Assembly (NCBI RefSeq): GCF_025151215.1
Contig: NZ_CP102286.1
Location: forward strand, 2,542,001 to 2,606,000
Reading direction: 5' to 3'
DNA length: 64,000 bases
Source of the DNA: Parabacteroides merdae ATCC 43184
GTDB taxonomy: Bacteria > Bacteroidota > Bacteroidia > Bacteroidales > Tannerellaceae
Part shown: piece by piece, positions 5,877-36,243 of the stretch
How positions within the stretch are numbered: position 1 is the stretch's first letter
Layout: each line of letters begins with the position of its first letter
Notes under the pieces: generated by a model
Database searches by the model: none
Told to the model about the DNA's origin: nothing
The model's input: the letters and a program-made list of their open reading frames with translations, nothing else
Position numbers and translations under genes: made by a program

Positions 5877-6617
5877 TTATGGCAATTGTTTCTTGTCCGG
5901 CTGCATTTGGCGCAATTTCTCTTTCCGCTTTCTGAGCAGGTCAACGGACATGTTCCTGCTTGTCCGATATTCCTCCTCGCTCATCCGGCGAATGGAAGGA
6001 ATGCCCGTCTGGGTCAGTGTATGGTTTACCATCCAGCCGTCCATGAAGTTTTCGGTGCAGAGGCTGTCATGGTGGATGACTTCCCCCACGCAGCCGTGAA
6101 TGAGCATATTGCATATGGTCATCAGGCAACAGGTACGGTTGACATCTTCCGCGACAAGATAATTACCCAGGTGGCGTACATGATATGCCAGCAGGAGACG
6201 CCCACTTCCGCAGGTAGGGTCGTTTATCCTCTGCCCGGTCTTTTTTCCGTCCGTTTCCGTACACATTACCATCAGGTCGCAGATATGTACGGGAGTGAAG
6301 AACTGCCCTTGCGCCTGTTGTCCCTTTCTGGAACTGAGCGCCATGAAAAGGTCTCCTAACGCGTCATACCAGGATGCGGCCTCCAGCTGCTTCTGCATGA
6401 GCCGCACCCATTCCGCAAACATTTTCATGAATGCGGCATTCTGCTGCCGCTTGTACCTCCAGTCTTTCAGCGGAGGAGCGCCCGGTGAGAATCCGTGTAT
6501 GACGTAACGCAGGAAATCTGTGAACACGTTCATCGGATCGTACCCGTTCAAGCCTGCAAACTCACAGATTGTCTTTTCAAGTGGCCGGACTTCTGGGGAT
6601 GTCTCATAGCGTGTCAT
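5877..6617 (-). CDS. Orphan N6-adenine DNA methylase-like protein lacking the NPPY motif
   Basis: A 246-residue protein with the SAM-binding part of type I (HsdM-like) N6-adenine methyltransferases: QGQFFTPVHICDLMV (about residues 104-118) and the motif I loop DPTCGSGRLLLAYH (about 133-146), followed by AEDVNRTCCLMTICNMLIHG. In active family members an NPP(Y/F) tetrapeptide should follow the IHHDSL region; here the sequence reads DGWMVNHTLTQTG. The specificity subunit and nuclease are absent. The protein is short for HsdM (usually about 500 residues). It overlaps the upstream gene by 14 bp. It may be a SAM-binding antirestriction or regulatory protein rather than a working methylase. Confidence 0.7.
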   Translation of the reverse strand: MTRYETSPEVRPLEKTICEFAGLNGYDPMNVFTDFLRYVIHGFSPGAPPLKDWRYKRQQNAAFMKMFAEWVRLMQKQLEAASWYDALGDLFMALSSRKGQQAQGQFFTPVHICDLMVMCTETDGKKTGQRINDPTCGSGRLLLAYHVRHLGNYLVAEDVNRTCCLMTICNMLIHGCVGEVIHHDSLCTENFMDGWMVNHTLTQTGIPSIRRMSEEEYRTSRNMSVDLLRKRKEKLRQMQPDKKQLP

Positions 6618-7425
6618 ATTGTTCTGTTTTTTTATAGAAGGTTACTGTATGTCCGTTATGGTCTGTCCGTATCTTGACGGGGGAGACGCCAAGGAAAAAG
6701 AGGTGCGTTTCCGCTTTCAGCATGTTCCATTCCCATGTGGGAAGTTCCTTCCATTCCATACGGTATGCCCAGAGTATGAACAGACCGGGACGGAATCCGT
6801 TGAAAAGTTCTCCGTGCAGAATCCCGACCAGCCGCTCCAGTTCTTCCCGCGAGTAAAGGGTGAATGACTCATTCCGATAGATAAAGGCATCAGCCGGTTC
6901 AATATCCGGCTGACACTCGATGATGTATCTCGTCCATTCTTTTGTGGTGTACTTTCCGTACAGAGGATCGGGTTCCGTGTATTTCCATGCCCTGACGAAT
7001 GTGTGGAAGAGGACGGCACCGTTCCTGTGCCTTCCGGTATGCCCCCACATCCGGAACTGTTTGCTGCGTATGCCATCGGGAAGCAGCAATTCCGGACCGG
7101 TTATAACCCAAGGGCCTCCTTCCGTATTGTAACCGGTACACTTTTCATTTTCATGGCAGAAAGGTGTCTGTGGGAGAAGGCAAATATGGACTTCCCGGTC
7201 ATCGCCCCTTTCAATGTGTGCCTGCGGATAATAGTCACCGCCACGGGTAGTATAAGTGACGACATCCCCTGCGGTCGGTAAACTGACTCTTTCCCTGTCC
7301 TCCCGCATCCTTGAAATCAGCCGGTTCACCTTCTCCACGTCGCACTCCTTTATGGAACAGGCACACCCTTCATGCCTGTTGAGCAGAGTCAGGCTTTCCA
7401 AATCATAAAAATTACCGTACTTCAT
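6604..7425 (-). CDS. DUF4121-like protein of Bacteroidales mobile elements
   Basis: A 273-residue protein of unknown function that resembles DUF4121 proteins from Bacteroidetes mobile elements; the family name is from memory of similar sequences. The start MKYGNFYDLESLTLL at 7425 is chosen over longer versions because it overlaps the upstream stop by 14 bp, as do neighbouring junctions. Notable are a CACSIKECDVEKVNRLISRMREDRERV segment, an FCHENEKCTGYNTEGG cysteine-containing loop and a WGHTGRHRNGAVLFHTFVRAWKY core. The paired cysteines could bind metal. It ends 14 bp inside the methylase-like gene, so the two are likely translated together. Confidence 0.6.
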   Translation of the reverse strand: MKYGNFYDLESLTLLNRHEGCACSIKECDVEKVNRLISRMREDRERVSLPTAGDVVTYTTRGGDYYPQAHIERGDDREVHICLLPQTPFCHENEKCTGYNTEGGPWVITGPELLLPDGIRSKQFRMWGHTGRHRNGAVLFHTFVRAWKYTEPDPLYGKYTTKEWTRYIIECQPDIEPADAFIYRNESFTLYSREELERLVGILHGELFNGFRPGLFILWAYRMEWKELPTWEWNMLKAETHLFFLGVSPVKIRTDHNGHTVTFYKKTEQYDTL

Positions 7426-7690
7426 ATTGAGAGCGTTTTTGTTGGTACAATTTGACCTGGCGGGCAACCATATCACAGAACTTCTGTCCGTTCTCCTTCT
7501 CGCTTCTGAAATAGGCAATCATGTCCCAGAGATTCTGATTGAAGTAGCCGGTCCATTTTTCGTAGCAGTGACTTCCATAGACCTTTCCGAACGTTTCCTC
7601 GAAAAGTGCGGGAGTCAGCCCTTCATCCCCATGGTGGTTGTATTGCCACAGAGAGACAAGCAGCAGCCGGTTATAATCCAGTGTTTCCAT
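7412..7690 (-). CDS. Small uncharacterised protein (92 aa)
   Basis: A 92-residue acidic and aromatic protein (METLDYNRLLLVSLWQYNHHGDEG) with no recognised domain, signal peptide or membrane segment. It is the first gene after a gap that contains copy A of the branched inverted repeat, so it probably has a structured leader. A short hairpin (7718-7733) lies about 28 bp upstream of its ATG, with an A-rich stretch just before the start. Its stop overlaps the next gene by 14 bp. Confidence 0.6.
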   Translation of the reverse strand: METLDYNRLLLVSLWQYNHHGDEGLTPALFEETFGKVYGSHCYEKWTGYFNQNLWDMIAYFRSEKENGQKFCDMVARQVKLYQQKRSQYEVR

Positions 7691-7760
7691 ATCCGTTCTT
7701 TTTTAAGTAAAACATCGGCCTACATGGGTAGGCATTTTTATTTCTTGGTGTCTTTCCGGC

Positions 7761-7884
7761 CTGTTTGCCGGGGATTGCGACAAGGCTTGGCGAAAGAAAA
7801 TACCGGAGCGAAGCGAGGATGATTTTCTTTCAGCCAACCCAGCCCCTGAAAGGGGCCGCCTTGCGCAATCAGCCCGGGAAACGG
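7761..7884. repeat. Branched inverted-repeat element, copy A
   Basis: A three-armed palindromic element. The outer stem pairs 7761-7785 with 7858-7884 (ATTGCGACAAGGC-type arm against GCCTTGCGCAAT). The second stem pairs TTGGCGAAAGAAAAT with ATTTTCTTTCAGCCAA around the conserved loop ACCGGAGCGAAGCGAGGATG. The third is the hairpin AGCCCCTGAAAGGGGC. Two more copies occur at 8336-8454 and 15841-15960. A separate short hairpin at 7718-7733 lies between this element and the start of the minus-strand gene at 7690. See findings for the covariation argument. Confidence 0.85.
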
Positions 7885-7971
7885 CTATCTTTACAGCAAG
7901 AAATGAAAAAGCAGACCTCGGATTCTCTGTTCTGAAGTCTGCTTTTCGGTCATTGTCGAGTCTCATGTTTT

Positions 7972-8262
7972 TCAGGTATGTATCTGCCATCCGTGGAACG
8001 GCTGCAATGTTACGGCAAACGATCTGTCAGGTATTCCATGATAGAGCAGACCTCCCACGATACCTGTCCTTCCGTCGGGATAGCGCTGTGTAAAGCCGAA
8101 CGAGTACGGGGCATGGTCGTAGTAGAGTGAGATTTCGCAGGGACAGTCAGGGTTTTCTTCCCAGCTTTTCAACCGTTCCAGACATTTTTGGAGCGAGGTG
8201 TCACCGATGGATTCGGCATAGCGCCTTACATTCTCGAAATGTTCTTCATTCAGGATTTTCAT
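7972..8262 (-). CDS. DUF4120-like small protein
   Basis: A 96-residue protein (MKILNEEHFENVRRYAESIG) resembling the small DUF4120 family found on Bacteroidetes mobile elements; the function is unknown and the name is from memory. The frame is open far upstream to 8874, but that part crosses copy B of the branched repeat and a plus-strand gene, so the ATG at 8262 is the sensible start. The C-terminal half (YYDHAPYSFGFTQRYPDGRTGIVGGLLYHG) is rich in aromatic and glycine residues. It lies downstream of repeat copy B and upstream of copy A. Confidence 0.6.
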   Translation of the reverse strand: MKILNEEHFENVRRYAESIGDTSLQKCLERLKSWEENPDCPCEISLYYDHAPYSFGFTQRYPDGRTGIVGGLLYHGIPDRSFAVTLQPFHGWQIHT

Positions 8263-8335
8263 GACTTTTGTATTTTTATCTGTTAAACACGTCCGGCTCC
8301 GGGAGCCGGTATTTTTATTTCTCGCCTGCCTGACA

Positions 8336-8454
8336 GTCCCGTGGCCGTACCCGCAAGGTTTGGCGAAAGAAAATACCGCAGCGAAGCGAGGATGATTTTC
8401 TTTCAGCCAACCCCGCAGGGGCCTGACCTTGTACGGGTACACAGGACACGGGAC
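8336..8454. repeat. Branched inverted-repeat element, copy B
   Basis: Same three-arm design as copies A and C but with different arm sequences. The outer stem pairs 8336-8359 (GTCCCGTG, then CCGTACCCGCAAGGT) with 8426-8454 (ACCTTGTACGGGTAC, then CACGGGAC). The second stem is the shared TTGGCGAAAGAAAAT/ATTTTCTTTCAGCCAA with the loop ACCGCAGCGAAGCGAGGATG. The third is CCCC-GCA-GGGG. A GC-rich hairpin (8293-8309) lies between it and the minus-strand gene at 8262. On the plus side a TACCTTTG sequence follows at once. It sits between divergent genes. Confidence 0.85.
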
Positions 8455-8564
8455 TACCTTTGCAGGGTGGGAAATAAAATATGCGGTTGTTCCTTGTTGC
8501 GGGATCTTGTATGGCTTCCGGAGATAATCTTCCTGATTTGTTCGCCATTGCCGGACAAATGGTG

Positions 8565-8572
8565 TATTTTTG
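8565..8572 (+). promoter_or_regulatory. Bacteroidales-type -7 box (TATTTTTG)
   Basis: TATTTTTG matches the TAnnTTTG -7 consensus of Bacteroidales sigma-ABfr promoters and lies 20 bp upstream of the ATG at 8593, so transcripts would have a very short leader. A TTTG lies 24 bp further upstream, slightly beyond the usual 19-21 bp spacing. Confidence 0.5.
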
Positions 8573-8592
8573 CAGTTTCTAATTTCAGGATC

Positions 8593-8937
8593 ATGGAAAA
8601 CTATATAAAGAAAGCGGCGGATGCTTTCCTTGTGGAGCGTCCGTATGGTATGCGTGTGGATTACAGGAAGAAAGGATTCGTGCTGTTTAACCGCAACCTG
8701 AACGTATTGGGCAATGCGGAGCATGCCCGTCTGGAAGAGCTGCCTCTGGAGCGGTTCAATGTGGAGGAGATTCCGTTGGATGGTGAAATTGTGGAGGAAC
8801 ACGCGGGATTTACCGATGTATTCTTCTATACCGATCTGACCAGCCCCTATGCCGGATATGCGCTGAATTTGCAAAAGCTCAAGGCCTATAACCGGTTTAT
8901 GTTTCCGTTGGCGATGGCGCTGAACCGTAAGTTGTGA
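8593..8937 (+). CDS. Small uncharacterised protein, only plus-strand gene of the block besides the membrane gene
   Basis: A 114-residue soluble protein (MENYIKKAADAFLVERPYGM) with no recognised domain. The sequence reads as a compact alpha/beta protein with the run DGEIVEEHAGFTDVFFYTDLTSP near residues 63-85. The ATG at 8593 is chosen because the longer frame to 8341 runs through repeat copy B. It is transcribed divergently from the DUF4120-like gene and has its own -7 box. Its opposite orientation within an otherwise minus-strand run suggests separate control. Confidence 0.6.
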   Translation: MENYIKKAADAFLVERPYGMRVDYRKKGFVLFNRNLNVLGNAEHARLEELPLERFNVEEIPLDGEIVEEHAGFTDVFFYTDLTSPYAGYALNLQKLKAYNRFMFPLAMALNRKL

Positions 8938-8995
8938 GTCCGGAAGCCGGCAACGGTAACAGCCGCATGGAGCACGCCGTTACCGCCAGGTTTTA

Positions 8996-9706
8996 TTATT
9001 TGCCCTTTCTTGTTGTTATAAATGCAAGATAATCGCCCACGGCCTTATGGCATCCGGTAAAGTCCGGAGTCCGGTGACCTTTGATTTTCCGGTAACTGAC
9101 GGTTCCGTTCCTGTCAATGCCTCTTACATGCCTGTTGAATGTCCCTTTGGTTCTGATATGGATGTCAAAACCGTCCCTTCCGGTGATTTCAAGGAACATT
9201 CCTCCCGTGATCCGTTCCCCGTCCAGGAATTTCTGTTTCTGTTCATCGAGCAGCCGCTGATGTTGCTCTTCCCGCGCTCTGCGCTCTTCCGCCTCTTTCT
9301 CCTCCTGTTCCCTGCGTTTCTGTTCCTGCCTCCTTTTGTATGCCTCACGGGCTTGCACCAGGGGGGTGGTGTCAAGTCCGAGAGCCTCGAACACGCGGAC
9401 TGAGATCAACCTGACAAAGGCTCCTCTTTCCGCGCCCTGAAGCGTATCCGCGATCCAGTTCCTGCAATAGGCGGCAGTTTCGTCCCTGCGGTTTTCTCCG
9501 TTGAGGAACCGGCGTGAATACTGCCCGCTGGAGAAATAAACGTTTTCAATCCGGCAGACCACATGGAAACAGTCATCGTCCTCATTCCCATATTCGTTCT
9601 TTCTAGACAGGGAGAGATATACATTCTCGGCGTACGGCTCCAGTTCCATATAAGGAGCCACGACGGTATTCCCGTCAGACCTGTACTTGAATACTTTTGC
9701 TTTCAT
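8996..9706 (-). CDS. Uncharacterised protein with charged coiled coil
   Basis: A 236-residue protein starting MKAKVFKYRSDGNTVVAPYM. The ATG at 9706 is preferred to one at 9742 because it follows the upstream stop by 1 bp. A highly charged helix of about residues 125-165 (YKRRQEQKRREQEEKEAEERR and on) should form a coiled coil. The flanking parts, including FDIHIRTKGTFNRHVRGID near the C-terminus, look globular. I recognise no family. It probably belongs to the same transcript as the genes to its right. Confidence 0.6.
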   Translation of the reverse strand: MKAKVFKYRSDGNTVVAPYMELEPYAENVYLSLSRKNEYGNEDDDCFHVVCRIENVYFSSGQYSRRFLNGENRRDETAAYCRNWIADTLQGAERGAFVRLISVRVFEALGLDTTPLVQAREAYKRRQEQKRREQEEKEAEERRAREEQHQRLLDEQKQKFLDGERITGGMFLEITGRDGFDIHIRTKGTFNRHVRGIDRNGTVSYRKIKGHRTPDFTGCHKAVGDYLAFITTRKGK

Positions 9707-9707
9707 A

Positions 9708-10409
9708 CTATCGTTCAGTTTGTCGGTTGTTGCATATTTCATCTATAATCTCTTTCCCGCTTCTTTCACCCTTCAGGAAGGCAAGGAAGCGCCTCAAAAA
9801 GAGCCGGGCACAGTCAGTTCCCAGCTGGGAGCTTTCACCGTCTTTGGTAGCGCATACCGCAAAACGCCCCAGTCCGAAACTGTCCTGTTGCGGTACGATG
9901 TGGTAAGACAAGTCCTCGCTTGCGTTGATGTGCAACCCACGACGGAAAACATAGAAAGTTTTCGGGATTCTTCTGTCGGTATCGATTTCCATACGCTTGT
10001 AACCGTGATGTTCCAATAACCGGACCAGTTCCCTGTTTGTCGGAATTGTATGTCCGATCCAGTCCGGCCAGCTTATATTTTCTATTGTATGTCCGTAATT
10101 GTCATATAATATGTCGAACTGTTCCTGGTATTCATCGTAAAATTCCCCGTTCCCGTTGCACATTTTCTCCAAAGCGATGCCGTTTTTACGGACAAGGGCA
10201 AGGTCGCCCAGTCCGCACGCGATTTCATTGAGCAGCGTGCGTTCCTCATCCCTGTCCTTTGCCGTTCCGTAAATTCTAAGCCGGGAATACCGGTGTAGCG
10301 CCGAACGGGACGGCATATCCAGTTTTTCCCATATCCCATCGTTTCCTATAGCCTGTCTGGTGTTTTCCGGAAGTCCGTACCACCACTTGTCCAAATTGTT
10401 TGTATCCAT
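9708..10409 (-). CDS. Uncharacterised protein (233 aa)
   Basis: A 233-residue protein (MDTNNLDKWWYGLPENTRQA) with no family I can name. The N-terminus NLDKWWYGLPENTRQAIGND resembles short conserved openings of proteins on Bacteroidetes conjugative elements. The middle is acidic, and the C-terminal helix LFLRRFLAFLKGERSGKEII is basic. There is no signal peptide. It sits 10 bp downstream of the DnaJ-LPD29 gene and 1 bp upstream of the coiled-coil gene. Confidence 0.58.
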   Translation of the reverse strand: MDTNNLDKWWYGLPENTRQAIGNDGIWEKLDMPSRSALHRYSRLRIYGTAKDRDEERTLLNEIACGLGDLALVRKNGIALEKMCNGNGEFYDEYQEQFDILYDNYGHTIENISWPDWIGHTIPTNRELVRLLEHHGYKRMEIDTDRRIPKTFYVFRRGLHINASEDLSYHIVPQQDSFGLGRFAVCATKDGESSQLGTDCARLFLRRFLAFLKGERSGKEIIDEICNNRQTER

Positions 10410-10419
10410 AATTCCTGAA

Positions 10420-11445
10420 TCAGATTGTTTTTAAATTCTGTTTTGAGTACCATGCCTGATACGCGGCGGCATACTCCTGACGTTCCCGTTCCAGGGAATT
10501 TCTCATCTCAGGGGTGTATCCGAGCAGGCGGATGTATCCTCCGTTATAGCCGGTGAGTTCGCACCTTATTCCGGCTTCCTCCAGTTTGTCGATGCGTTTT
10601 TGGGCCATTTTTGCGCTTGAATATTCCTTCGGCCAAAAATAGACTTCGCCCCGTGAGCCGAAACAGTCTTCCCCCAGAATTATTTCCCCGGCATACTTCC
10701 GGCTTTCGATGAAGCCGAAACGCGCTTTGCCCAATGCCCGGCGCATTGCCTTGTGTGCCGGACCTTCCGGATGCTTGAATACCTCCGGCTTGTCTTTGCT
10801 GCCGAGTTTGGGCGGTTCCACCTTGTACGGCTGTTTGTAACTTCCGATTCCGAGCGTCAGGTAAAAGTTGGTGTGAAAATAGTCCGTCATGGGGTCGCTG
10901 TCATCGAAATTGTACGACATGATGAAATCGCAGATATTCACCATTACATCCTTTGCCCTGTCCGTCAAGGATTTGTCTGAATGGATATGATGGTGGTTGA
11001 CATCGCCTTGAACTTTTCCGGACTCTTTGGTGAACGCCTCGAAATCCGCTTTCATCAACCGGATATGGATGGAGTGGCAATTCTCCCGTCTGACAGAGAA
11101 CTTGTATCCCGGATAGGTCTCCTTGAGCCATGCCCGTACCAGTCCCACAATTTCAGGAGCGTGCTGCCCCTTGTAATTGCGGCCTTTCCAGCGGTATTCG
11201 TTATACACATACTTGGTGTATTCCTTTGCCGTGGCTCCCGGATAGTCATATTCATATCCGGTTGAGGTCGAGGGAATATCCGGTTTTTCTTTCCAAGCCT
11301 CAAAAAGCCTTCCAAACTCGGTGTTCACCTGTTGCATGATTGCGGTGTCACCACCCTTGTCCGGGTGGTGCTCCAATGCCAGCCGGCGGTATTCTTTCTT
11401 CAAGTCCGTCAGAGAGTGTATGTTCTGAAAATAAGTCATAGCCAT
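10420..11445 (-). CDS. DnaJ-domain / LPD29-domain polyvalent protein
   Basis: A 341-residue two-domain protein. Residues about 3-45 form a J domain with the diagnostic HPDKGGD (its HPD tripeptide stimulates DnaK ATPase in this family). Residues about 90-170 (PEIVGLVRAWLKETYPGYKF then VRRENCHSIHIRLMKADFEAF) look like the large polyvalent protein-associated domain LPD29, known from mobile-element proteins. The start at 11445 (MAMTYFQNIHSLTDL) lies 7 bp after the upstream stop; longer starts enter the neighbouring gene. A plausible role is recruiting host DnaK for element replication, transfer or protein remodelling, but this is inferred from domains only. Confidence 0.75.
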   Translation of the reverse strand: MAMTYFQNIHSLTDLKKEYRRLALEHHPDKGGDTAIMQQVNTEFGRLFEAWKEKPDIPSTSTGYEYDYPGATAKEYTKYVYNEYRWKGRNYKGQHAPEIVGLVRAWLKETYPGYKFSVRRENCHSIHIRLMKADFEAFTKESGKVQGDVNHHHIHSDKSLTDRAKDVMVNICDFIMSYNFDDSDPMTDYFHTNFYLTLGIGSYKQPYKVEPPKLGSKDKPEVFKHPEGPAHKAMRRALGKARFGFIESRKYAGEIILGEDCFGSRGEVYFWPKEYSSAKMAQKRIDKLEEAGIRCELTGYNGGYIRLLGYTPEMRNSLERERQEYAAAYQAWYSKQNLKTI

Positions 11446-11452
11446 AAGTTTT

Positions 11453-11662
11453 TTATGCCCCTGCGAGGCGGTTGATAAAATATTCCCGGTAGTCAAGGTC
11501 AAGACCGAGGTTGAGACAGGCCGTTTCCATGTCATCTTCTCTCAGGTCGTCCGCCTCCTGCAATTCGCGCAGGTACCGGATTTCGGAGTCCAGGTATTCC
11601 TGTGCTTCCGTTTGACCGCAACCGCATGAGTTGCAGATCAGACTGATAATGTTTCCCTGCAT
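11453..11662 (-). CDS. Small uncharacterised protein (69 aa)
   Basis: A 69-residue acidic protein (MQGNIISLICNSCGCGQTEA). The N-terminal CNSCGCG cluster could bind metal. The rest is helical and acidic. The longer open frame to 11890 is a shadow of the upstream gene; the ATG at 11662 gives a 25-bp overlap with that gene's 3' end. No family is recognised. Confidence 0.5.
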   Translation of the reverse strand: MQGNIISLICNSCGCGQTEAQEYLDSEIRYLRELQEADDLREDDMETACLNLGLDLDYREYFINRLAGA

Positions 11663-11937
11663 GCTGTTTGATTTTTTATGTTTCTGTTCCTGTTTCTGAG
11701 GCCTCGTCCGTCGTATATCGAGACGGCCCGTTCCACCAAAAGCCTGCGGTTGTCTTCCGAAAGTTCCAGATAGAACCGTTCCGCCGCGCCGAATGTGCCC
11801 TTGTCTGTCGCCACGCACCATTTTTCCCAGAAATGCGGGTACATGCCGCCATACACGGTTTTGCATTCCTCCTCGCTCCAGGCGTTCCACATGTAGTAGA
11901 AGAAACTGGAGACGGTATTTTCCGCTTGATATTTCAT
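11638..11937 (-). CDS. Small uncharacterised protein (99 aa)
   Basis: A 99-residue protein beginning MKYQAENTVSSFFYYMWNAW. The ATG at 11937 overlaps the upstream stop in an ATGA arrangement, a classic sign of coupled translation. The sequence WSEEECKTVYGGMYPHFWEKW is rich in aromatic residues and could be a protein-binding module. No domain is recognised. Confidence 0.55.
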   Translation of the reverse strand: MKYQAENTVSSFFYYMWNAWSEEECKTVYGGMYPHFWEKWCVATDKGTFGAAERFYLELSEDNRRLLVERAVSIYDGRGLRNRNRNIKNQTACRETLSV

Positions 11938-12533
11938 GGTTCTTCTATTTGTGATTCTACATTGTTTGTTTCTCTCAGTTGATGCCACACAGCCTCATAC
12001 ATCTCATAAAGCCAGTCTATGTTCTTCGCGCCGAGTTCAAACGGGCTGTGACACTGCACCTCGTCACCGCTTTCTTTCTCTTCGGCAAGGACGGTCAGGC
12101 TGTCCGCTGTTACCCGGAGTCCTGTCACCCTGCATTCATATGGTTCTCCGTTCTTGCCAAACCATATCACCCAGACCGGATCATAATCCTCTTCCGGAAG
12201 ACGAATTTCTTTCACGCAGTGAGCATGGAGCAACTGCCGTATCGCGTCGATGATGTCCCCCCGCAGTTCCTTGATCCTGCCGCTGAAATCAACGGCTTCT
12301 GACGGTAAACTTCCTTTTCCGCCTCTTTCCTGCAAGGAGAGAATCCGCGTGTCGGGATGGATACAGAAATCCCAGTCCAACACTTCATCGTCATCGCGTG
12401 TCGTGTGGATATCGCCGCCCAAAACAAGACCGCAATCGTCATTTACCATTCTTTTTGCTTCATCGCGGTCTTCTGCCGCTACCGTGTAAGTGCCCTCGAA
12501 GGAATACCTTACTCTTATGTCATATCTTTTCAT
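11934..12533 (-). CDS. Uncharacterised protein (199 aa)
   Basis: A 199-residue acidic protein starting MKRYDIRVRYSFEGTYTVAA. The start at 12533 has GGAAAG about 6 bp upstream, a better ribosome binding site than the one at 12545. The first 70 residues (TYTVAAEDRDEAKRMVNDDCGLVLGG) resemble small beta-alpha-beta domains with a repeated-strand look, followed by a second region ending in IDWLYEMYEAVWHQL. No family is assigned. Confidence 0.57.
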   Translation of the reverse strand: MKRYDIRVRYSFEGTYTVAAEDRDEAKRMVNDDCGLVLGGDIHTTRDDDEVLDWDFCIHPDTRILSLQERGGKGSLPSEAVDFSGRIKELRGDIIDAIRQLLHAHCVKEIRLPEEDYDPVWVIWFGKNGEPYECRVTGLRVTADSLTVLAEEKESGDEVQCHSPFELGAKNIDWLYEMYEAVWHQLRETNNVESQIEEP

Positions 12534-12580
12534 GATTCTTTCCATTTGATTGTTGATACCAGATTCATTGCCCGGAAGGA

Positions 12581-13078
12581 TTACCGGATATTCAATATTG
12601 CGCTAAAGGCATGTGGGTCAAGCCTGTAAAACGTCGGAAGGTTAAGTGTGACCATCGGGTAGCTTACCCGGCCGCTCTGACGTCTATAACCTGTATCCTC
12701 AGCCAATTTGTTAGACAGAAGGAACTCCATGGCATCAGGATTGTTGTTGATGTCCACGAATGCCCTGTCAGGCAGTGAGAATGCCGCCTTATCTTCTAAG
12801 TTGACCGTCAGGACCGTGTATATCTCATGGGTCACGGGATCTTTCAGAGACAATGCCGGCCAGCCGTTATGGTACATTTCAATCACGATTGAGAGACGGC
12901 TTTCCTGATACAGGAAAGTCTCTTCCATGGACGGATGGTCGCATTTGACAATTTCAAAATCATCCTCCCCTTTGGTAAATGTCACCATCGGATAGGATAC
13001 ATCGACAAAACATTCCTCTTCCCGGTAGCAGAGATGTTCTTTTCCCTCTGAACGGATTATAGCCAATCGGGTGTTCAT
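12581..13078 (-). CDS. Uncharacterised protein (165 aa) with internal sequence repetition
   Basis: A 165-residue protein (MNTRLAIIRSEGKEHLCYRE). The phrase VSYPMVTF near residue 27 recurs as VSYPMVTL near residue 140, suggesting a duplicated beta unit. The start at 13078 is preferred because the extension to 13132 overlaps the upstream gene and reads unlike protein. It has no signal peptide or membrane segment. It lies about 50 bp downstream of the small coiled-coil gene. Confidence 0.57.
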   Translation of the reverse strand: MNTRLAIIRSEGKEHLCYREEECFVDVSYPMVTFTKGEDDFEIVKCDHPSMEETFLYQESRLSIVIEMYHNGWPALSLKDPVTHEIYTVLTVNLEDKAAFSLPDRAFVDINNNPDAMEFLLSNKLAEDTGYRRQSGRVSYPMVTLNLPTFYRLDPHAFSAILNIR

Positions 13079-13128
13079 ATTCGTAACTGGTTTTAAAATT
13101 ATTGACTTGCAAGTTAATTGGCCGGCAT

Positions 13129-13380
13129 TCACCTGCCTGTTTCTTTAAACGTGTGATTGTCACCGCCTGCGGACATTTGGAAGAGTTGCTGTCTCACCGC
13201 CTTGATTTTCCCGATCAGTTCGTCCTCCCTTCGGAATGAGGGGGTACATTTGGTACGCCTCATCCCGGCTCCCCAGGGGATGCCGCCGCATACTTTTCTC
13301 AGGCGTGCCTTTTCGCTTTCCAGGGCCGACTCCAGACGGGCCAGCCTGCGTCGCAACGATTCTTCGGTCACAGTTCTCAT
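13129..13380 (-). CDS. Small basic coiled-coil protein (83 aa)
   Basis: An 83-residue basic protein. Residues 1-30 (MRTVTEESLRRRLARLESAL and on) form a predicted coiled coil, and DELIGKIKAVRQQLFQM near the C-terminus is a second helix. The central segment GGIPWGAGMRRTKCTPSFR is basic and could contact nucleic acid. No family is recognised. Confidence 0.5.
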   Translation of the reverse strand: MRTVTEESLRRRLARLESALESEKARLRKVCGGIPWGAGMRRTKCTPSFRREDELIGKIKAVRQQLFQMSAGGDNHTFKETGR

Positions 13381-13449
13381 GATTTCATTGTTTTTTTAGT
13401 ATGGTGACGGGTCGGAAAGACAGTCACCATACCGTCGTTATGTGTCACG

Positions 13450-14337
13450 TTATATTTTAGCTTTTTCCCTTTTGATGCCTCTCAGGACGTACAACAGGTG
13501 CAGGAACAGCTCCCTGTCGTAAATCCGGAAGAAGAACGGCTCGCCTGTTTCCCTGACCGTTCCGGTAAAAGACACGGACTCCCGGTTCACGGGATATTGG
13601 AGGAAGTTGCCGTTTGCCAGCAGGGTGTGCTTTTTCTTCATCACTTCGCCTAGGAACTTGTCCATATCGTCGTTTCCCTCATAGCCGGAGAAGTAGAGGA
13701 AATGATGACGGCGCAGGCTTCGCAGGATTTTGGCGGTTTCCAGCCTTACATCCCTGCCTGACGATTCGTCCGTTCCTCTCATCAGGTTGCAGATGAACTT
13801 CTTCTCGCCATTTATGTCAAGAAACAGATAAGGAACTATAATTATAGAGGCATGCCGTGCGTGGCCGGAGATGACCATCGGCTTTTCTTTCAGGATGTCT
13901 CCTTTGAAGGTAATGTTCCGGTAATGGTTGTCCATCTGCCGTTCCAGCTCCTTTCTTGGCGTGGTAACGGAGCGGAGTCCCGTGAAGTAGCGTCCGCCCG
14001 CCCGGAAGCAGAACCGGTAGATGTCCGCATGATAAGGCTCTCCCAGGAAAAAGAAATTCCGGGTATGGCGGATGGGGGGCAAGACATCCATGTAGTCGAA
14101 ATATCTTTCTTCCGTAATCTCACTGAACGGGGCGCAGAGGGATTGCAGGTGGATGCGTATCATCTTGCGGACGGTATTTCCGGACACGGCTGTGAGGTAC
14201 GGGTTCTTTTCCCTGTCCCTCAGTTCCTCCAGTGTCTCATGATGGTAGTCGCCGTGTATTCCGTCAGACATGGTGGTCACGCAGCTGCCGTCAAAACTGC
14301 GTGAATCGACTACGAATTTCAGTTTGTCGTTATTCAT
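13450..14337 (-). CDS. Uncharacterised protein (295 aa)
   Basis: A 295-residue soluble protein (MNNDKLKFVVDSRSFDGSCV) that I cannot assign. It is rich in aromatic and basic residues, with segments RHTRNFFFLGEPYHADIYRF and GHARHASIIIVPYLFLDING that look like buried strands. It starts 3 bp after the stop of the 380-residue gene, so the pair is very likely co-translated. Confidence 0.58.
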   Translation of the reverse strand: MNNDKLKFVVDSRSFDGSCVTTMSDGIHGDYHHETLEELRDREKNPYLTAVSGNTVRKMIRIHLQSLCAPFSEITEERYFDYMDVLPPIRHTRNFFFLGEPYHADIYRFCFRAGGRYFTGLRSVTTPRKELERQMDNHYRNITFKGDILKEKPMVISGHARHASIIIVPYLFLDINGEKKFICNLMRGTDESSGRDVRLETAKILRSLRRHHFLYFSGYEGNDDMDKFLGEVMKKKHTLLANGNFLQYPVNRESVSFTGTVRETGEPFFFRIYDRELFLHLLYVLRGIKREKAKI

Positions 14338-14340
14338 GGT

Positions 14341-15483
14341 TCAGATGTTTTGAAGGTTCAACACTCTCTTGGCGGCACTGAGGGCATTGGAGGTGAGCTG
14401 CCGTTGCCATGCCTTGTTTCTGGGTGACCAGCGGAATCCGGAGGATTTCAGTTCCTTTCGTCTGTTGTCTTCGGGAATCCTGTCAAACAGGATCTGAAGG
14501 CGGTCTTCCCCATAGTTCCATACAAGTGTCCCGCCCTCGAACGGCACTTCCTTGTTTTCCCGGCTTTGCACCGCTTTCAGCCTTTCGCGCATCCGTTCCG
14601 CAAGTTCCGGCAATTGGAAGAATTTGTTTCTCGGGGTGATGACGGGTTTCCTTAGCCTTGCGTTATATTCGGAAATGAAGTCCACGGCCCTGCGGACGAT
14701 TTCCACTTCCCCGTGATTGGCGAAGGTGGATACCTTGTTCAGGATGCTGCTGACGAACAGGGCACGGTTATAACCCCGGCATTGTCCGGTGTCAATCCCG
14801 TGGATGGTGTCGGCGCTGCTCTTGATGTCGCGTTTGAGCGTCTGCCATGCCTTTTCCAGTTTTTCTTCCTCCGGTCGTGCGGCTTCCTTTTTTCGTCTGA
14901 CGGCTTCAAGAACCTTTTGCCGCCAATTGCGGAACTCCTCGTAGCGGTTCTGATAGCTTCTGTTCGTATTCTCCTGCCTGTGGTAATCAAATCCGCCTCG
15001 TCCCGTCACCATCGGGTTGGCGCAGCGTGAGAGGGCCGAGAGCTGGGCGGATAGCTTTTTCCGGTAGGCGGCGATGTATGTATCCCGTTCCTCTTCCTGC
15101 ATGAGTTGCAGGTCGTTGTGCAGCTCCTCCCCGTAAATCATGATGTCCGTCTCGCCACGAATCTCCGGGTCGAAGGAACTCCAGGCGTATGCGTCGCAAG
15201 CCTGTTTCCACATATCCTCCAGATAGCCAGGATGTTTGAACGCTACGGCTTCCCAGTCTTTGAAGTCCCTGGAATGCAATTCATTCCGATCTTCCGGATT
15301 TCCGTACAGGTGTACATAGTTGCCCGTTCCATGATGCTCCTTTCTGAAATGGAACGGTACGGGAGGATGGTCCGTACCCTTTTCCCGGATCATCGTGACC
15401 CGGTGCGCATTCTCTGCGGTAAGGCCCGTTACTTGTTCTTCCCGGACCTTTGCTGTTGTTGTTTCAGTCATAACCGTTGCCAT
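14341..15483 (-). CDS. Polyvalent-type mobile-element protein with GFRWSP-KAWQR C-terminal module
   Basis: A 380-residue protein. The C-terminal module, about residues 310-378, contains LQILFDRIPEDNRRKELKSS then GFRWSPRNKAWQRQLTSNA, a pattern I have seen in multi-domain proteins of phages and conjugative elements, often beside antirestriction or methylase domains; I cannot give its formal name. The middle holds a long charged helix (FRNWRQKVLEAVRRKKEAAR). Two starts are possible: 15483, or 15471, which gives an ATGA overlap with the upstream stop. A role in helping the element establish in new hosts is inference. Confidence 0.62.
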   Translation of the reverse strand: MATVMTETTTAKVREEQVTGLTAENAHRVTMIREKGTDHPPVPFHFRKEHHGTGNYVHLYGNPEDRNELHSRDFKDWEAVAFKHPGYLEDMWKQACDAYAWSSFDPEIRGETDIMIYGEELHNDLQLMQEEERDTYIAAYRKKLSAQLSALSRCANPMVTGRGGFDYHRQENTNRSYQNRYEEFRNWRQKVLEAVRRKKEAARPEEEKLEKAWQTLKRDIKSSADTIHGIDTGQCRGYNRALFVSSILNKVSTFANHGEVEIVRRAVDFISEYNARLRKPVITPRNKFFQLPELAERMRERLKAVQSRENKEVPFEGGTLVWNYGEDRLQILFDRIPEDNRRKELKSSGFRWSPRNKAWQRQLTSNALSAAKRVLNLQNI

Positions 15484-15764
15484 TCATAAATTATTTCTAC
15501 CAGTTCTTCGTCCGCCAGTTTTTGGATTTCCTCGTCCGAGCAATAGCAGGCGATTTCCTCGTCCAGCTTGAAAGCTGCCGGGTCAAGGCTTCTGATGCCG
15601 TCCAGCAGTTCCGGCACCAGGCTGTCTGCGGCAACCGTATAGCTTCCGTCCCTGCCTTGCACCTTCCGTGCGGGATAGCTCCTTTCCCGATAAACCAACA
15701 TTCTCATTTTCGGATTGGCACCCTGCTGTCCTTTGTGGACTTTGCTTGTTGTCTCTCTGTTCAT
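15468..15764 (-). CDS. Small uncharacterised acidic protein (98 aa)
   Basis: A 98-residue protein (MNRETTSKVHKGQQGANPKM), first gene of the long minus-strand run. Its C-terminal half is acidic (DEEIACYCSDEEIQKLADEELVEIIYEW). Upstream lies copy C of the branched repeat plus a separate hairpin (15796-15812), then an A-rich stretch before the ATG, the same arrangement as for the genes starting at 7690 and 8262. Confidence 0.58.
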   Translation of the reverse strand: MNRETTSKVHKGQQGANPKMRMLVYRERSYPARKVQGRDGSYTVAADSLVPELLDGIRSLDPAAFKLDEEIACYCSDEEIQKLADEELVEIIYEWQRL

Positions 15765-15840
15765 ACCTTCATTTTTTTAGTTTGTTTGACATGATCGGCT
15801 CCGTGGAGCCGGTTTTTCGGTTTCTTACTTGCCGGACTGT

Positions 15841-15960
15841 CCTTTGCCGGGGATTGCGCAAGGCTTGGCAAAAGAAAATACCGCAGCGAAGCGAGGATGA
15901 TTTTCTTTTAGCCAACCAGCCCCTGAAAGGGGCCGCCTTGCGCAATCAACCCGGCAAAGG
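15841..15960. repeat. Branched inverted-repeat element, copy C (best preserved)
   Basis: The outer stem pairs 15841-15864 (CCTTTGCCGGG then GATTGCGCAAGGC) with 15935-15960 (GCCTTGCGCAATC, AA, CCCGGCAAAGG), 24 bp with a 2-base bulge. The second stem pairs 15865-15879 with 15900-15915 around the loop at 15880-15899. The third stem is GCCCC-TGAAA-GGGGC at 15919-15933. TATATTTG follows on the plus side at 15963. It lies between divergent genes: the minus-strand gene at 15764 and the plus-strand membrane gene at 16177. Confidence 0.88.
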
Positions 15961-16176
15961 GCTATATTTGCAGGTAAGAAATTGAAAGAATGGCTGGGAT
16001 TTTCAATTTGTCGGATACAACATGTAATAAGTGTAATGAGCAAATTTAAAAGCATACAACGAAGGTTTTTCAAATATTTTCCAAACTATCGGATATCAAT
16101 ATCATATCGTAAAACAAGCGAAGGCGTGGCATTCCGGAATAAATACATGTCTTCGCGTCAAAGGTGATTGATTGAA

Positions 16177-16584
16177 ATGAATATATTCTCTGCTTTTGAT
16201 ACGGGTGTCATGGTAGCTCTCTTGCTGGGTATTGAGTTTCTTAGGAGTGATATCCAAACAATTCTCTATTGTAAAAGAAACGATCCCGGGATTTTTAAGA
16301 GCTGCCTGTATACATTATTTATATTGTTGGCAAGTCTTTATTCCATTGTGGCCGGAGCCATGCTTAACCCCGAGCCCGTACCCGTTTATGAATTGATGCC
16401 CGGTTTTCAAATAGGAGTTTATGGTTCTTGTTTTTTGTTTATATTTCTTGTTATCGCCGGTCTTTACCGTAAAATATTACCTCTCGTCCTTTTGGGGTAC
16501 GCTATGGTATATGTAATCGGTGTACTGATACCGTTACTTGGATATGTAGTGTCCATGATGAATTATTTCGCCAGCGTAGGATGA
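16177..16584 (+). CDS. Small integral membrane protein, unknown function
   Basis: A 135-residue protein with four predicted membrane segments (about residues 6-22 VMVALLLGIEFL, 46-64 LFILLASLYSIVAGAML, 83-101 GSCFLFIFLVIAG and 105-128 LPLVLLGYAMVYVIGVLIPLLGY). The ATG at 16177 is used; the frame opens slightly earlier at a TTG. Before the composite transposon inserted, this gene and the integrase gene faced each other, separated by a terminator. It may be cargo of the integrative element. No family is recognised. Confidence 0.6.
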   Translation: MNIFSAFDTGVMVALLLGIEFLRSDIQTILYCKRNDPGIFKSCLYTLFILLASLYSIVAGAMLNPEPVPVYELMPGFQIGVYGSCFLFIFLVIAGLYRKILPLVLLGYAMVYVIGVLIPLLGYVVSMMNYFASVG

Positions 16585-16984: not shown

Positions 16985-18428
16985 TATTGGTGTCCGGTAA
17001 AAGTTTGACCGAATCAAAAATACAAGGCTGAATCCCCTCTCGGAGGTCCAGCCTTTTTCGTTACCTTTGTTTCTGCTAAAAAATAAATCAATAACGATGA
17101 ACAAAGGTAGTCATTTCAACGGACAGCCGGCATATGGTCAGCTGATAAATTTGCTGGACAAGTCAAAAATTCTCCAAATCAGTCAAGAAAAGGGCGGCGA
17201 ACGGTATGTCAAACACTTTGACGCTTGGCAGCATCTGCTGATAATGTTGTATGCCGTGATCAAACGGTTCGATTCGCTGCGGGAAATCACGGACTCGATG
17301 TTCCCTGAAGCGAGAAAGCTTGCCCATCTTGGGATAAGCATGATGCCCCGGCGCAGTACTCTGTCTGACGCAAATGCACGCAGGTCAGAGGGAATCTTTG
17401 AGGCAATCTATCGCGACCTGTACAAGACATACCGCAACGAACTTTCATCGGACAGCCGAAACAATCCATCTTCCAGTTGGATAAACCGGCTGCAGATTAT
17501 CGATTCGACGACAATCAGCCTGTTCTCCAACCTTATCTTCACGGGAGTCGGACGCCATCCGAAGACGGGGAAGAAGAAAGGCGGCATAAAGGTCCACACC
17601 AATATCCATGCAAACGAGGGAGTTTCTTCAGATATCAGGTTCACATCTGCCGCCACTAATGACAGTTTCATGCTCAAGCCGTCAAATTACACAAGCGGAG
17701 ACATCGTTGCCCTGGACAGGGCCTACATCGATTACGCCAAGTTCGAGGAGCTGAGCCGGGCAGGTGTCATATATGTCACCAAGATGAAGAAGAATCTTGT
17801 CTATGAGGTTTCTGCTGATACGATATACATGACAGAAAGTGGGTTGATGGCACTTCGGGAACGCCATGTGACATTCACGAAGAAGGTCAAAGATGGCGAC
17901 GATATAAAGCACCATGCACGCATAGTCACCTACGTCGACCAAAAGAAAAGAGGGGCCAAGCTCATATCCCTCCTCACAAACGACATGGAGATGAGCGCCG
18001 AGGATATTGTGGCAATCTACCGGAAACGCTGGGAGATAGAGCTGTTGTTCAAGCAGATAAAGCAGAACTTCCCCCTTCGGTACTTTTACGGCGAAAGCGC
18101 CAATGCCATCAAAATCCAGATATGGATAACCCTCATCGCCAACCTTCTACTGATGGTGCTGAAGAAACGCATCAAACGCAGCTGGAGCTTCTCGGGATTG
18201 GCAACAATGGTCAGAATCATGTTAATGTATTACGTCAACCTCTACACCTTCCTCGAAGAACCCGACAAAGACTGGTCAAAACTGGTAGCCGAGGCAGAAT
18301 CGCCACCCAAGGAACTCCTGCTCTTTGGATAGAGGGGCTTACCAGACAAAACAAACACCCGCAATGCCTATCAAGTGACACTGCGGGTAGGCGAATCGTA
18401 CTACACTAAACTTTAGCGGACAGCAATG
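16985..18428 (+). mobile_element. IS4-type insertion sequence inside IS1380
   Basis: A 1444-bp element with imperfect terminal inverted repeats: ATTGGTGTCCGGTAAAAGTT at the left and ATTGCTGTCCGCTAAAGTTT on the reverse strand at the right. The 9-bp sequence ATTTGAAAA is directly repeated at 16976-16984 and 18429-18437 and occurs once in the uninterrupted right IS1380 copy, which proves the insertion and its boundaries to within a base. Confidence 0.9.
17097..18332 (+). CDS. IS4 family transposase (DUF4372 N-terminus)
   Basis: A 411-residue DDE transposase. An N-terminal DUF4372-like region (GQLINLLDKSKILQISQEKG through the HFDAWQHLLIMLYAV block) precedes the DDE_Tnp_1 core: the first Asp in QIIDSTTISLF, the second in DIVALDRAYIDYAKF, and the YREK-like signature in YRKRWEIELLFKQIKQNF, where the Glu is the third catalytic residue. 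Length is normal and no stop interrupts it. The ATG at 17097 (MNKGSHFNGQPAY) follows a TACCTTTG -7 box at 17062-17069. It looks functional. Confidence 0.9.
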   Translation: MNKGSHFNGQPAYGQLINLLDKSKILQISQEKGGERYVKHFDAWQHLLIMLYAVIKRFDSLREITDSMFPEARKLAHLGISMMPRRSTLSDANARRSEGIFEAIYRDLYKTYRNELSSDSRNNPSSSWINRLQIIDSTTISLFSNLIFTGVGRHPKTGKKKGGIKVHTNIHANEGVSSDIRFTSAATNDSFMLKPSNYTSGDIVALDRAYIDYAKFEELSRAGVIYVTKMKKNLVYEVSADTIYMTESGLMALRERHVTFTKKVKDGDDIKHHARIVTYVDQKKRGAKLISLLTNDMEMSAEDIVAIYRKRWEIELLFKQIKQNFPLRYFYGESANAIKIQIWITLIANLLLMVLKKRIKRSWSFSGLATMVRIMLMYYVNLYTFLEEPDKDWSKLVAEAESPPKELLLFG

Positions 18429-19745
18429 ATTTGAAAACGAAAGTCTTAATACGACTCGATATGGATAGGCCAAAATCCTTAACGTTTAATTTTCGGATGA
18501 TTGTTTTGTAGAAGTTCCTTATCAATGCAGTCATCAGCAGGTATACTGCATTTTCTGCCATGAATGACTTTGGCAAATGTTTCCATCCAAACCCGTTGTT
18601 CATGTCATCGAGGATTCTTTCCTTCCCACCGCACAGGTTATAGAACTCTACGACATCCCTTATGTCGGATTCGAAATCATTGGTAAGGATACACCGGTAG
18701 GTATATTCTCCTTCCCATAGCTCCCGTATGTCATCTGTTCTTCTTTGTCTTTGGATGACAAGACGGTATGGTTTCCCCTTCCACTTTTCTACGACAATCG
18801 AATTCAGCTCGAACCTGATTCCGTTGATCTCCTCAGCCTTCCATCCCCTGAGGGCGAACATGTCATCGTAAAAAGCGGAGCATCTGTTGGCTCTGATATA
18901 GAAGTACTTGCAATGGGCCTTGACGGTATCTACAATCTCTTCGGAGCACGACCCACAATCCATACGAGCTCTATTTATATGAATGCCGTTACATTCCAGC
19001 CTGGTGAAGATTCTTTCCAATGTACACTGCTGGCAGAACCGGACATTCGTGTTGCCATCCCGATTTTCAATGCCGACAATATGGTCACCTATAACGGCCA
19101 CTCCCGGGCTGTATCCTGTGAACTTCTTGTATGTACGTTTGGCATCATACTTCTCCGTTTCAATGAACTGGTGGTCAAAATCCAGATCGTAACCCTGCTC
19201 CTGACATAATTCTCCGGTAGCAATGAGAGACTTGACCAACAATTCGTTCATTGTGTCAGCTGTATTGAAGTCATATGATTTACCTGAGTCTGGAGATGAA
19301 TACGTTATGTTGTCTGTAGTCAGTTCTTTTATGGCGCGAAGAATCGTGTCTGCGCTGCAGGTTTTAAGTTTGGGATGCAGGGAAAGATGGGGCATGAGAT
19401 GAGTGGATATGTCTTCAATGCACGAGCCGCCACAGAAGAATACGCACATGAGAGAACGGATGATTTCACTGTATTGGTAACCATAGGTTCTGCTACGCAG
19501 TCCTAATGTGGAGTCGATTACGTCCGATAAAAGAGCATCAAATTGCTCCATGATTGAAAATATTCCGCCAAAAGGTGTGATTGAATCGAATTTTATTTGT
19601 ACTTTAGCCATGTCTGCTGAAGATTGGTTTGATTTTTATTGCAACACGAAGTTAAGTGAATCTTCTGACATGACAAAGCACTGGGTAATACATTACTACT
19701 CAGTGCTTTAAATTATTCTTGTACAAAAGTGTTGCGGAAATTAGG

Positions 19746-19878
19746 TATATCAACAATTGAGGAAGCGTTATGCTTGTTTTGTTGTGACTCCACTCAAAAT
19801 GCGGTGTTCCGGTTTCACGCTTCCATGTATTATCAGGTTCTTCCAAGAAACCTGGAAGGCGTAAAATAATCCACATTT
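19746..19878 (+). promoter_or_regulatory. Leader region between IS1380 end and lipoprotein gene
   Basis: This 133-bp stretch separates the inner end of the left IS1380 from the cargo gene. Related Bacteroides IS1380 elements are known to carry outward promoters that drive neighbouring genes, so the element may express the cargo. No perfect TAnnTTTG box is visible here, so the promoter is inferred from the family, not seen. Confidence 0.25.
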
Positions 19879-21246: not shown

Positions 21247-21834
21247 GGCTTTTAGCGGATAAACCTCAATCAGTCATTAGAACGAGAAAAGTAAAGCGAC
21301 TGACTATTTTTATTCGTTCTAACGACCGAATTGGGTTAAAAGAGACAAAATGGGCGAGGAAGACCACTGAGCTTTCAGCCTATTTTGTGACTTTCACTTA
21401 TAGTCTAAAACGATATAGCATTAATGAATTGTCTTCCTCGTCCATATTGGGTATGATATACGAATAATAATAGGGTGCCATATATCCCATTACTCTAAAA
21501 TTCGTAGGAACGGATACATCTGCAATGAGCTTACCTTCTTTATAAATTTGCAGCCCATCTTTTTCTATATCCTTCTTTTTATACGATCTGAATAAAGATT
21601 GATTGCTGATTACGTGTGTTGAAAATAGTTTAGGATATCTTTTGTCCGCCTGACTACTCTAATGCTATCCACTTTCTATCCACCCTTATTTTTGTGACAG
21701 ACTGTTGGCTGGATGCTCGTGGAAAATCGTTACTTTTGCAGCCGTTTTCAGGCAGGATAGGTTCATGTAATTGGGATAAAGTGGCATTAGCCGTAGGAAT
21801 TCCTGCATCAGAAAGTGATTATTATCAACATAAA
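21247..21834. other. Cargo intergenic region
   Basis: Apart from the 3' gene fragment described separately, this stretch holds an imperfect inverted repeat (TTAGAACGA at about 21278 and TCGTTCTAA at about 21313) just beyond the lipoprotein stop, which may act as its terminator. I see no other gene up to the IS1380 end at 21835. Confidence 0.4.
21398..21655 (-). pseudogene. 3' fragment of a 6-bladed beta-propeller / DUF4221-like gene
   Basis: The minus strand has an open stretch ending at 21398 that reads VISNQSLFRSYKKKDIEKDG, then IYKEGKLIADVSVPTNFRVM, then YMAPYYYSYIIPNMDEEDNS and the terminal LMLYRFRL. It resembles the C-terminal end of Bacteroidetes 6-bladed beta-propeller lipoproteins (similarity from memory). 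Upstream, stops appear in frame near 21660 and no start is present, so only the 3' remnant survives. It was probably carried along when the IS1380 pair trapped this piece of DNA. Confidence 0.55.
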
Positions 21835-23434: not shown

Positions 23435-23435
23435 T

Positions 23436-24671: not shown

Positions 24672-24804
24672 CACTTTTGTTTTTTTAGAGGTGTTACATC
24701 CAATTGTTTCGTCAAAACCGGATGGCATGAGGACGTGAAACGAAATGTTAAATTCGGTGGCTTTTTTGAGGGACTTGTGGAATAGCCATAAAAATCCCAT
24801 TTTT

Positions 24805-25133: not shown

Positions 25134-25209
25134 TGGTGGTGCCACCAGGAATCGAACCGGGGACACAAGGATTTTCAGTCCTTTGCTCTACCAACTGAGC
25201 TATGGCACC
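25134..25209 (-). tRNA. tRNA-Phe (anticodon GAA)
   Basis: The minus strand folds as a standard tRNA: acceptor GGTGCCA/TGGCACC, D-arm AGCTCAGTTGGTAGAGC, anticodon arm GGACTGAAAATCC with anticodon GAA, T-arm CCCCGGTTCGATTCCTGG region and an encoded 3' ACCA. It is transcribed alone from a promoter at 25230-25260 and ended by its own hairpin. The integrase lies directly on its 3' side, so the 3' end probably serves as attachment site. Confidence 0.95.
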
Positions 25210-36162: not shown

Positions 36163-36243
36163 GTTAATTGACAATTGACAACAGACAATGACAACCGACA
36201 ATTCCAAATTCTCCTAAATTGCCAATTGCCAATTATCCATTGC
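36163..36243. repeat. Short GACAA-type repeats between ruvA and sprA
   Basis: The 81-bp gap contains repeated TTGACAATTGACAAC, GACAATGACAACCGACAATT and CCAATTGCCAATTAT phrases. Similar simple repeats occur upstream of the trkH stop side at 38381-38440 (TTAACAATTGACACATTG, TTGTCCATTGACAATTAATT). Their role is unknown; they may be decayed repeats or weak terminators. Confidence 0.45.

Follow-up and report, generated by a model that had tools for sequence, protein, structure and literature searches.

The window analysed here, 64,000 nt at positions 2542001–2606000 of the 4.38-Mb chromosome of Parabacteroides merdae ATCC 43184, contains one branched palindrome in three copies (A, B, and C), considered below as a candidate promoter of single-stranded DNA. 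The three copies share a single design, as had been noticed in an original prediction made from the letters of the sequence, and the prediction of their folds as DNA gave a complete single-strand hairpin on the + strand for each (A, 7740–7904; B, 8317–8475; C, 15825–15977, with arms that can be extended a few bases past both ends), reaching 16–21 bases further at each end than first proposed. The hairpin of copy A is composed of an outer stem, a conserved apical stem-loop that is AT-rich (GAAAGAAAATACCG..GAGGATGATTTTCTTTC; 7792–7831, + strand), and a side hairpin at a three-way junction (7842–7856, + strand). As single-stranded DNA, copies A, B, and C fold with −51.1 kcal/mol (z = −7.91), −44.6 kcal/mol (z = −7.92), and −50.8 kcal/mol (z = −8.56), respectively, and in each case none of 200 shuffles was as good. 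The 20-base loop, originally described as conserved, is present in all three copies and is not invariant, reading ACCGGAGCG in copy A and ACCGCAGCG in copies B and C.

Conservation of the fold and the folding strand

Relatives of the palindrome were collected with two covariance models, R1, built from the core alone of 11 sequences and ending before the −7 box described below, and R2, built from 26 diverse sequences with the core and 3’ tail, such that the box is included. In a wide alignment with 80 distinct rows of 85, 25 of the 31 base pairs have changed on both sides and the covariation score, obtained from model-aligned rows and so from an alignment fitted to the structure, was 0.388, compared to 0.134 for shuffled alignments (0/500 as high) and ≤0.127 with the partners slid. 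The selection for a fold that had been proposed from three copies is borne out by this alignment. An alignment-free test, in which every 5’ arm was combined with every 3’ arm amongst 47 non-redundant copies (of 50; three with a box score ≤4 were excluded), gave the same picture for the outer arms, with native against permuted partners at −13.15 versus −7.27 and −14.38 versus −7.05 kcal/mol (0/5000 permutations as good). The stem is preserved and its sequence is free to vary. On the element strand, the arms contain 65 G.T and 17 A.C oppositions (12:2 and 53:15 in two arm parts) and this excess makes the element strand, rather than the messenger RNA (mRNA) leader complementary to it, the likelier molecule to fold.

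A promoter motif inside the hairpin

The sigma-ABfr promoter, the primary one of the Bacteroidota, is described, in the available portion of the source, as TAnnTTTG for the −7 box with TTTG near −33 (PMC7366714). In copies A, B, and C, TAnnTTTG is located 22–23 bases 3’ of a CCTTG whose TTG is −33-like, all within the 3’ arm and on the + strand. The CCTTG is paired in each copy (A, 7859–7863; B, 8427–8431; C, 15936–15940), while six or seven bases of each box fall in an internal loop of a stem that is otherwise continuous: seven of the eight bases of TATCTTTA in copy A (7886–7893; 5/6 to TAnnTTTG), the six middle bases of TACCTTTG in copy B (8455–8462), and the first seven bases of TATATTTG in copy C (15963–15970).

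The occurrence of the box was scored independently of the model in the next 18-base window of the 20 copies that R1 found outside of its own seed, the remaining 24 of the 44 R1 matches being seed copies, near copies of the seed, or three reverse-strand matches. Exact TAnnTTTG was present in 16 of these 20 copies and at least 5/6 positions matched in 18, while shuffles and 595 windows further off gave background rates of 0.65–0.67% for the exact match and about 10% for at least 5/6. For R2, a model that holds the box, an exact match occurred in 40 of the 50 non-redundant copies. Across 47 copies, the mean unpaired probability was 0.43–0.65 for the first seven bases of the box, 0.15–0.34 for the ten bases before it, and 0.06–0.24 for positions 7–24 after it; the box was open (≥4 of the first 6 bases) in 24 copies and both flanks were paired in 18. 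A second, smaller unpaired peak is located 11–16 bases before the −7 box in up to 16/47 copies (offset −16).

Within the element regions, defined for these counts as 80 bases before to 100 bases after the element, exact TAnnTTTG occurred in the hairpin direction in 51/63 and in the gene direction in 1/63, compared to 12/62 background stretches. Close to the element, the adjoining genes appear to be without an ordinary −7 box, and the box in the hairpin points the opposite way. This arrangement is best explained by the folded strand serving as template, with the 3’ arm being read and the single strand 5’ of the element following it; the hairpin promoter aims into the neighbouring operon when the strand is folded and away from it in duplex DNA.

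Neighbouring genes, relaxases, and distribution

Codon-scored gene calls were made for 64 of 70 non-redundant copies, the other six having too little flank. In 50 copies, the closest gene 5’ of the element pointed away from it, so that the element strand is the template of that gene; in 10 copies it pointed toward the element, and in four none was called. The median distance from the core to the gene start was 85 bases (quartiles, 71–159). Genes 3’ of the element showed no preference (31 leftward, 24 rightward, and seven none). With all 179 flanked hits included, redundant copies amongst them, the 5’-side calls were 153 away, 16 toward, and 10 none. Two cruder procedures agreed in direction, though noisier as long antisense open reading frames (ORFs) win in them: the longest open run gave 28 away, eight toward, and nine ties (n = 45) and ORF length gave 41 away, 19 toward, and four none.

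In the window, the 5’-side genes are all on the − strand. Copy A is followed by a gene for 92 amino acids without a Pfam match (7412–7690) and then by a DUF4121 gene (6604–7425) and an N6-methylase-like gene (5877–6617), copy B by a DUF4120 gene (7972–8262; 96 amino acids; Pfam E = 4.9e-61), and copy C by a gene for 98 amino acids without a Pfam match (15468–15764), a gene with a weak PriC match (14341–15483), and further minus-strand genes. A short GC hairpin, followed by a + strand run of T, occurs between each copy and its gene. Read from the sequence, these short hairpins are located on the − strand in the predicted 5’ leader (7717–7733 for A, 8293–8309 for B, and 15796–15811 for C) and could be either rightward terminator-like structures or leader hairpins of the predicted mRNA; hairpins resembling them were noted by eye at loci L042, L043, and L044.

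A domain scan was applied to one downstream gene for each of 40 copies, namely the longest ORF with a start at most 450 bases away, which in some cases is the second gene; of the 47 copies, five gave no ORF and two ORFs of ~50 amino acids were excluded. Pfam matches were to DUF4121 (four), DUF6943 (four), RadC (two), DnaJ-like (two), and, once each, ArdA (at locus L050), SSB (at L079), DUF4120, DUF6956, DUF6266, and a weak PriC, and most of the 40 genes are without a known function. NCBIfam gave weak sigma-70 matches in two of these genes, and PADLOC returned nothing for the 40 except a weak Cas11d match. Starting instead from the gene, nine ArdA matches were found in 295 genomes. For seven of these matches, an element lies upstream and on the other strand (one of the seven being an R2 seed copy), six of them within ~220 bases and one at ~845 bases, the latter with a second, weak match closer by. 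Both ArdA and SSB belong to the known early genes of the F and ColIb-P9 plasmids, going by the accessible parts of the sources (PMC9849209, PMC3969726).

Amongst 281 listed places from 100 genomes, elements within 20 kb of each other were co-oriented in 45/49 cases and those >200 kb apart in 89/195. Relaxases of PF03432 were searched in the P. merdae genome and 39 chosen element-bearing genomes, 35 of which have one, and the following counts rest on relaxases among the matches listed, with the weak end outside. Of the 175 elements, 71 had a PF03432 gene no more than 30 kb away, which was on the opposite strand for 61 and on the same strand for 10; counted by relaxase island, 44 of 51 had elements on the opposite strand, six on the same strand, and one was mixed, and within 5 kb all 13 elements were on the opposite strand. 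Relative to the relaxase gene, 49 of these 71 elements lay upstream and 22 downstream. Relaxase genes usually enter the recipient last and are typically lagging, according to the part of the source at hand (PMC11541004), and with the elements on the strand opposite to them, the element strand would therefore be the expected transferred strand (T-strand). In P. merdae, a relaxase gene with neighbours (2520565–2524421, minus strand) and a plus-strand operon (2531996–2541516) lie ahead of the window, and both precede the minus-strand operons and copies A–C.

The palindrome is not confined to the three copies first noticed, as the P. merdae genome has eleven (R2, E ≤ 0.001), ten on the + strand (2463031, 2470920, 2484425, 2549774 (A), 2550348 (B), 2557853 (C), 2614653, 1249057, 3067062, and 1067401) and one on the − strand (2143901). 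Beyond this genome, in samples that overlap and with search filters that drop weak matches, R1 identified the element in 12/198 genomes of the order (E ≤ 0.01), while R2 (E ≤ 0.001) identified it in 40/65 genomes of the family, 84/392 genomes of the order, and 22/392 genomes of a phylum sample, 18 of the 22 belonging to the same class outside of the order. The search of Bacteroidetes genomes with a covariance model, suggested along with the original prediction, recovered relatives widely in the order. Copies are also present on four plasmid records, three from Parabacteroides distasonis and one from Phocaeicola massiliensis, and the exact apical motif occurs in 63 stretches of named genomes, including Phocaeicola vulgatus ATCC 8482 (NC_009614.1), several Bacteroides, Barnesiella, and Muribaculaceae. 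No named family was thought to fit the palindrome, and this holds for Rfam: at the gathering cut-off, no family was reached in the whole window except a tRNA elsewhere, and a permissive search of 7001–16500 gave three chance-level snoRNA matches, all outside of the copies.

Several observations concern the surroundings of the elements. Copy C and its neighbouring genes (window 13450–15979) recur ~57 kb away at 2612250–2614779 with a nearly identical element, pointing to either a duplication or a pair of related elements. At 17067–24800 in the window, a tyrosine integrase gene and three genes for DDE transposases lie close to a tRNA gene (25137–25209), perhaps an element boundary, and an open frame of 2498 amino acids occupies 28711–36207 on the minus strand. 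Four IMG/VR contigs filed as viral (L024, L025, L026, and L027) contain elements, with three copies at a window-like spacing in L025 and L026, and may be fragments of conjugative elements instead of phages. Two records labelled Clostridiales and Eubacteriales (L174 and L220) also contain the element, reflecting either assembly contamination or inter-phylum transfer.

Probable single-stranded promoters of conjugative elements

Based on the computed structure, covariation, promoter motif and its place, gene orientation preference, strand relation to relaxases, and wide distribution, each copy is probably (probability of about 0.83) a single-stranded DNA promoter of Bacteroidota conjugative elements, similar in action to the Frpo and ssi sites of enterobacterial plasmids. 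Under this model, conjugation would deliver one strand, the T-strand, into a new cell, where the element, if carried on that strand as we infer, would fold to a long branched hairpin with a stem imitating duplex DNA. The 3’ arm would act as the non-template strand of a sigma-ABfr promoter, with the TTG of CCTTG at about −33, TAnnTTTG at −7, and the AT-rich apical stem upstream of the boxes, while the 5’ arm would act as the template. The −7 box, placed in an internal loop, would be melted beforehand, and RNA polymerase would initiate near the hairpin base and then proceed along the single strand 5’ of the element as its template. In this way, mRNA of the opposite-strand genes (ArdA, SSB, RadC, DUF4121, DUF4120, and others) could be made before a complementary strand exists and, after duplex formation, the same sequence would point the other way and those genes would be turned off. 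Of the three roles originally offered for the palindrome, a DNA-protein site comes nearest, provided that RNA polymerase, acting on the folded single strand, is the protein in question.

The closest known system is Frpo (Frpo1 and Frpo2) of the F plasmid, reportedly described by Masai and Arai in 1997. For F, the accessible text describes two copies of a stem-loop on the T-strand, in which −10 and −35 boxes are rebuilt ahead of the leading genes (PMC9849209). The F sites were located by the repeat upstream of ssb, and as the fold scan on the ygeA side picked another hairpin, the homologue of the ssb-side hairpin was folded there via the repeat coordinates. The resulting T-strand folds of the repeated region, upstream of ssb and of ygeA/B, share with the present elements an AT-rich apical stem, a branch, a loop near the base, and a gene on the 5’ side; by likeness to Frpo, the AT-rich stem-loop of copy A (7792–7831) would occupy an UP-like position. 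Unlike Frpo, the elements have Bacteroidota sigma-type boxes, and whereas F is typed as MOBF, they occur near PF03432 relaxases of Bacteroidota. An R2 search of 19 kb from the leading region of F, in which both Frpo sites lie, gave no match at E up to 10, and membership by descent in the enterobacterial Frpo sequence family was rejected for want of sequence homology by R2. The resemblance to the ssi sites and single-stranded promoters of ColIb-P9, which are said to switch on ardA, ssb, and other early genes as the plasmid enters (Bates 1999; Nasim 2004), is by description and not by sequence: here too the element precedes ArdA (7/9) and an SSB gene, in another phylum and with another promoter type. 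Two features of the functional class of Frpo and ssi are present, as the strand folds to a stable hairpin that rebuilds boxes for the primary sigma factor of the host and leading or establishment-type genes are on the 5’ side with the element strand as template. The class is already known, and the elements would extend it to another phylum and promoter type.

Other reports are compared here through the portions of text available. The Frpo-like candidates in anti-defence islands (Samuel 2024; PMC11541004) are likewise T-strand promoters before early genes, but were detected via similarity to Frpo/ssi and sigma-70 boxes. The establishment regulons of pLS20 are similar in that establishment genes are expressed on conjugative entry, but its authors argue against a single-strand promoter, the transferred strand being the non-template, whereas the element strand here is the template (PMC8708921). 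A study of a Bacteroides fragilis ArdA states that ardA genes in general use a single-stranded promoter (PMC3969726), and the zygotic induction treated in PMC5395568 concerns a Pseudomonas insertion sequence. As far as these texts extend, the word Bacteroid is absent from the main text of PMC11541004 and from PMC12826799 and PMC8708921, and the literature searched, with subscription papers outside its scope, had no description of single-stranded promoters in Bacteroidota elements.

Several results weigh against the assignment as a single-stranded promoter. In the core, where the pairs were fitted by the model, G.T is only weakly in excess (109 G.T, 82 A.C, and 279 other mismatches). For the promoter motif, three of the 50 non-redundant copies score ≤4/6 for the box, copy A has TATCTTTA, only the R1 window test is independent with respect to the box and its 20 copies include near relatives, and the TTG-to-TA spacing is 20–23 in 40/47 copies. 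The box is clearly open in 24/47 copies, and windows shifted clear of it are open in 2–6 copies but in 16 and 12 at offsets −16 and −14; the search for gene-direction promoters was confined to within 100 bases of the element. Amongst the neighbours, the 5’-side gene points toward the element in 10/64 copies and none was called in four, and two of the nine ArdA genes lack an element. Of the relaxase islands, six of 51 are on the same strand and one is mixed, 22/71 elements are on the downstream (lagging) side, 104/175 have no listed relaxase within 30 kb, and conjugative elements are related, so the strand counts are not independent.

The alternative that survives best, itself unlikely, is that the hairpins are single-strand initiation sites, at which polymerase would lay down a short primer on the hairpin to start complementary-strand synthesis, with gene expression being incidental. 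The fold and strand logic are the same and the strand polarity fits equally well; however, a primer site needs neither several copies per element, nearness to a start codon, nor the 50:10 orientation on the 5’ side, and does not require the depletion of the ordinary −7 box for genes near the element. A priming role may coexist with the promoter role. A cis-regulatory RNA leader (riboswitch, attenuator, or antitermination) in the 5’ untranslated region of the minus-strand operons, one of the original proposals, would account for strong folds directly upstream of operons, but is very improbable. Such a leader is the complement of the element, so that A.C, its G.U, should be tolerated, whereas the arms favour G.T (65 versus 17), contradicting the proposal; the wobbles expected of the mRNA strand were not found, and the candidate was rejected. 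Moreover, the outer stem can change in sequence, what is both conserved and unpaired is a promoter motif on the other strand, and an exact gene-direction −7 box within 100 bases occurs in just 1/63 regions. Equally improbable is an ordinary rightward duplex promoter, for a + strand gene or a small RNA, with the palindrome as operator. It would explain the regular spacing of TTG and TAnnTTTG on the + strand, but not the inconsistent 3’-side genes (31 leftward, 24 rightward, seven none), stems of free sequence that are ill-suited to a sequence-specific operator, or the placement of the box at an inter-arm mismatch in about half of the copies. Least probable is the non-autonomous mobile repeat also proposed at first, a miniature inverted-repeat transposable element (MITE) or one like a repetitive extragenic palindrome (REP), as despite multiple palindromic copies across many species, the termini vary amongst copies of one genome around a conserved centre, the reverse of the conserved termini on which MITE/REP membership was rejected, and the copies show preferences in where they lie and how they are oriented with respect to genes and relaxases.

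A broader proposal, which we consider somewhat better than an even bet, is that such promoters are widespread in the Bacteroidota, independent of Frpo, and define an entry regulon of genes without a working duplex promoter that are on only while single-stranded. In that case, the products of the unknown downstream genes, such as DUF4121, DUF4120, DUF6943, and DUF6956, would be proteins of early establishment or anti-defence, and the element could serve as a search tag for them. If the copies act as proposed, single-stranded promoters would not be confined to enterobacteria, but would also be present in a dominant gut phylum, with an unrelated sequence and another sigma factor, and would explain how ArdA, SSB, and many unknown genes are expressed at the entry of Bacteroidota conjugative elements. 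The element would also provide a sequence tag for early genes, many of unknown function, and would show which strand is transferred where the nick site of an element has yet to be mapped.

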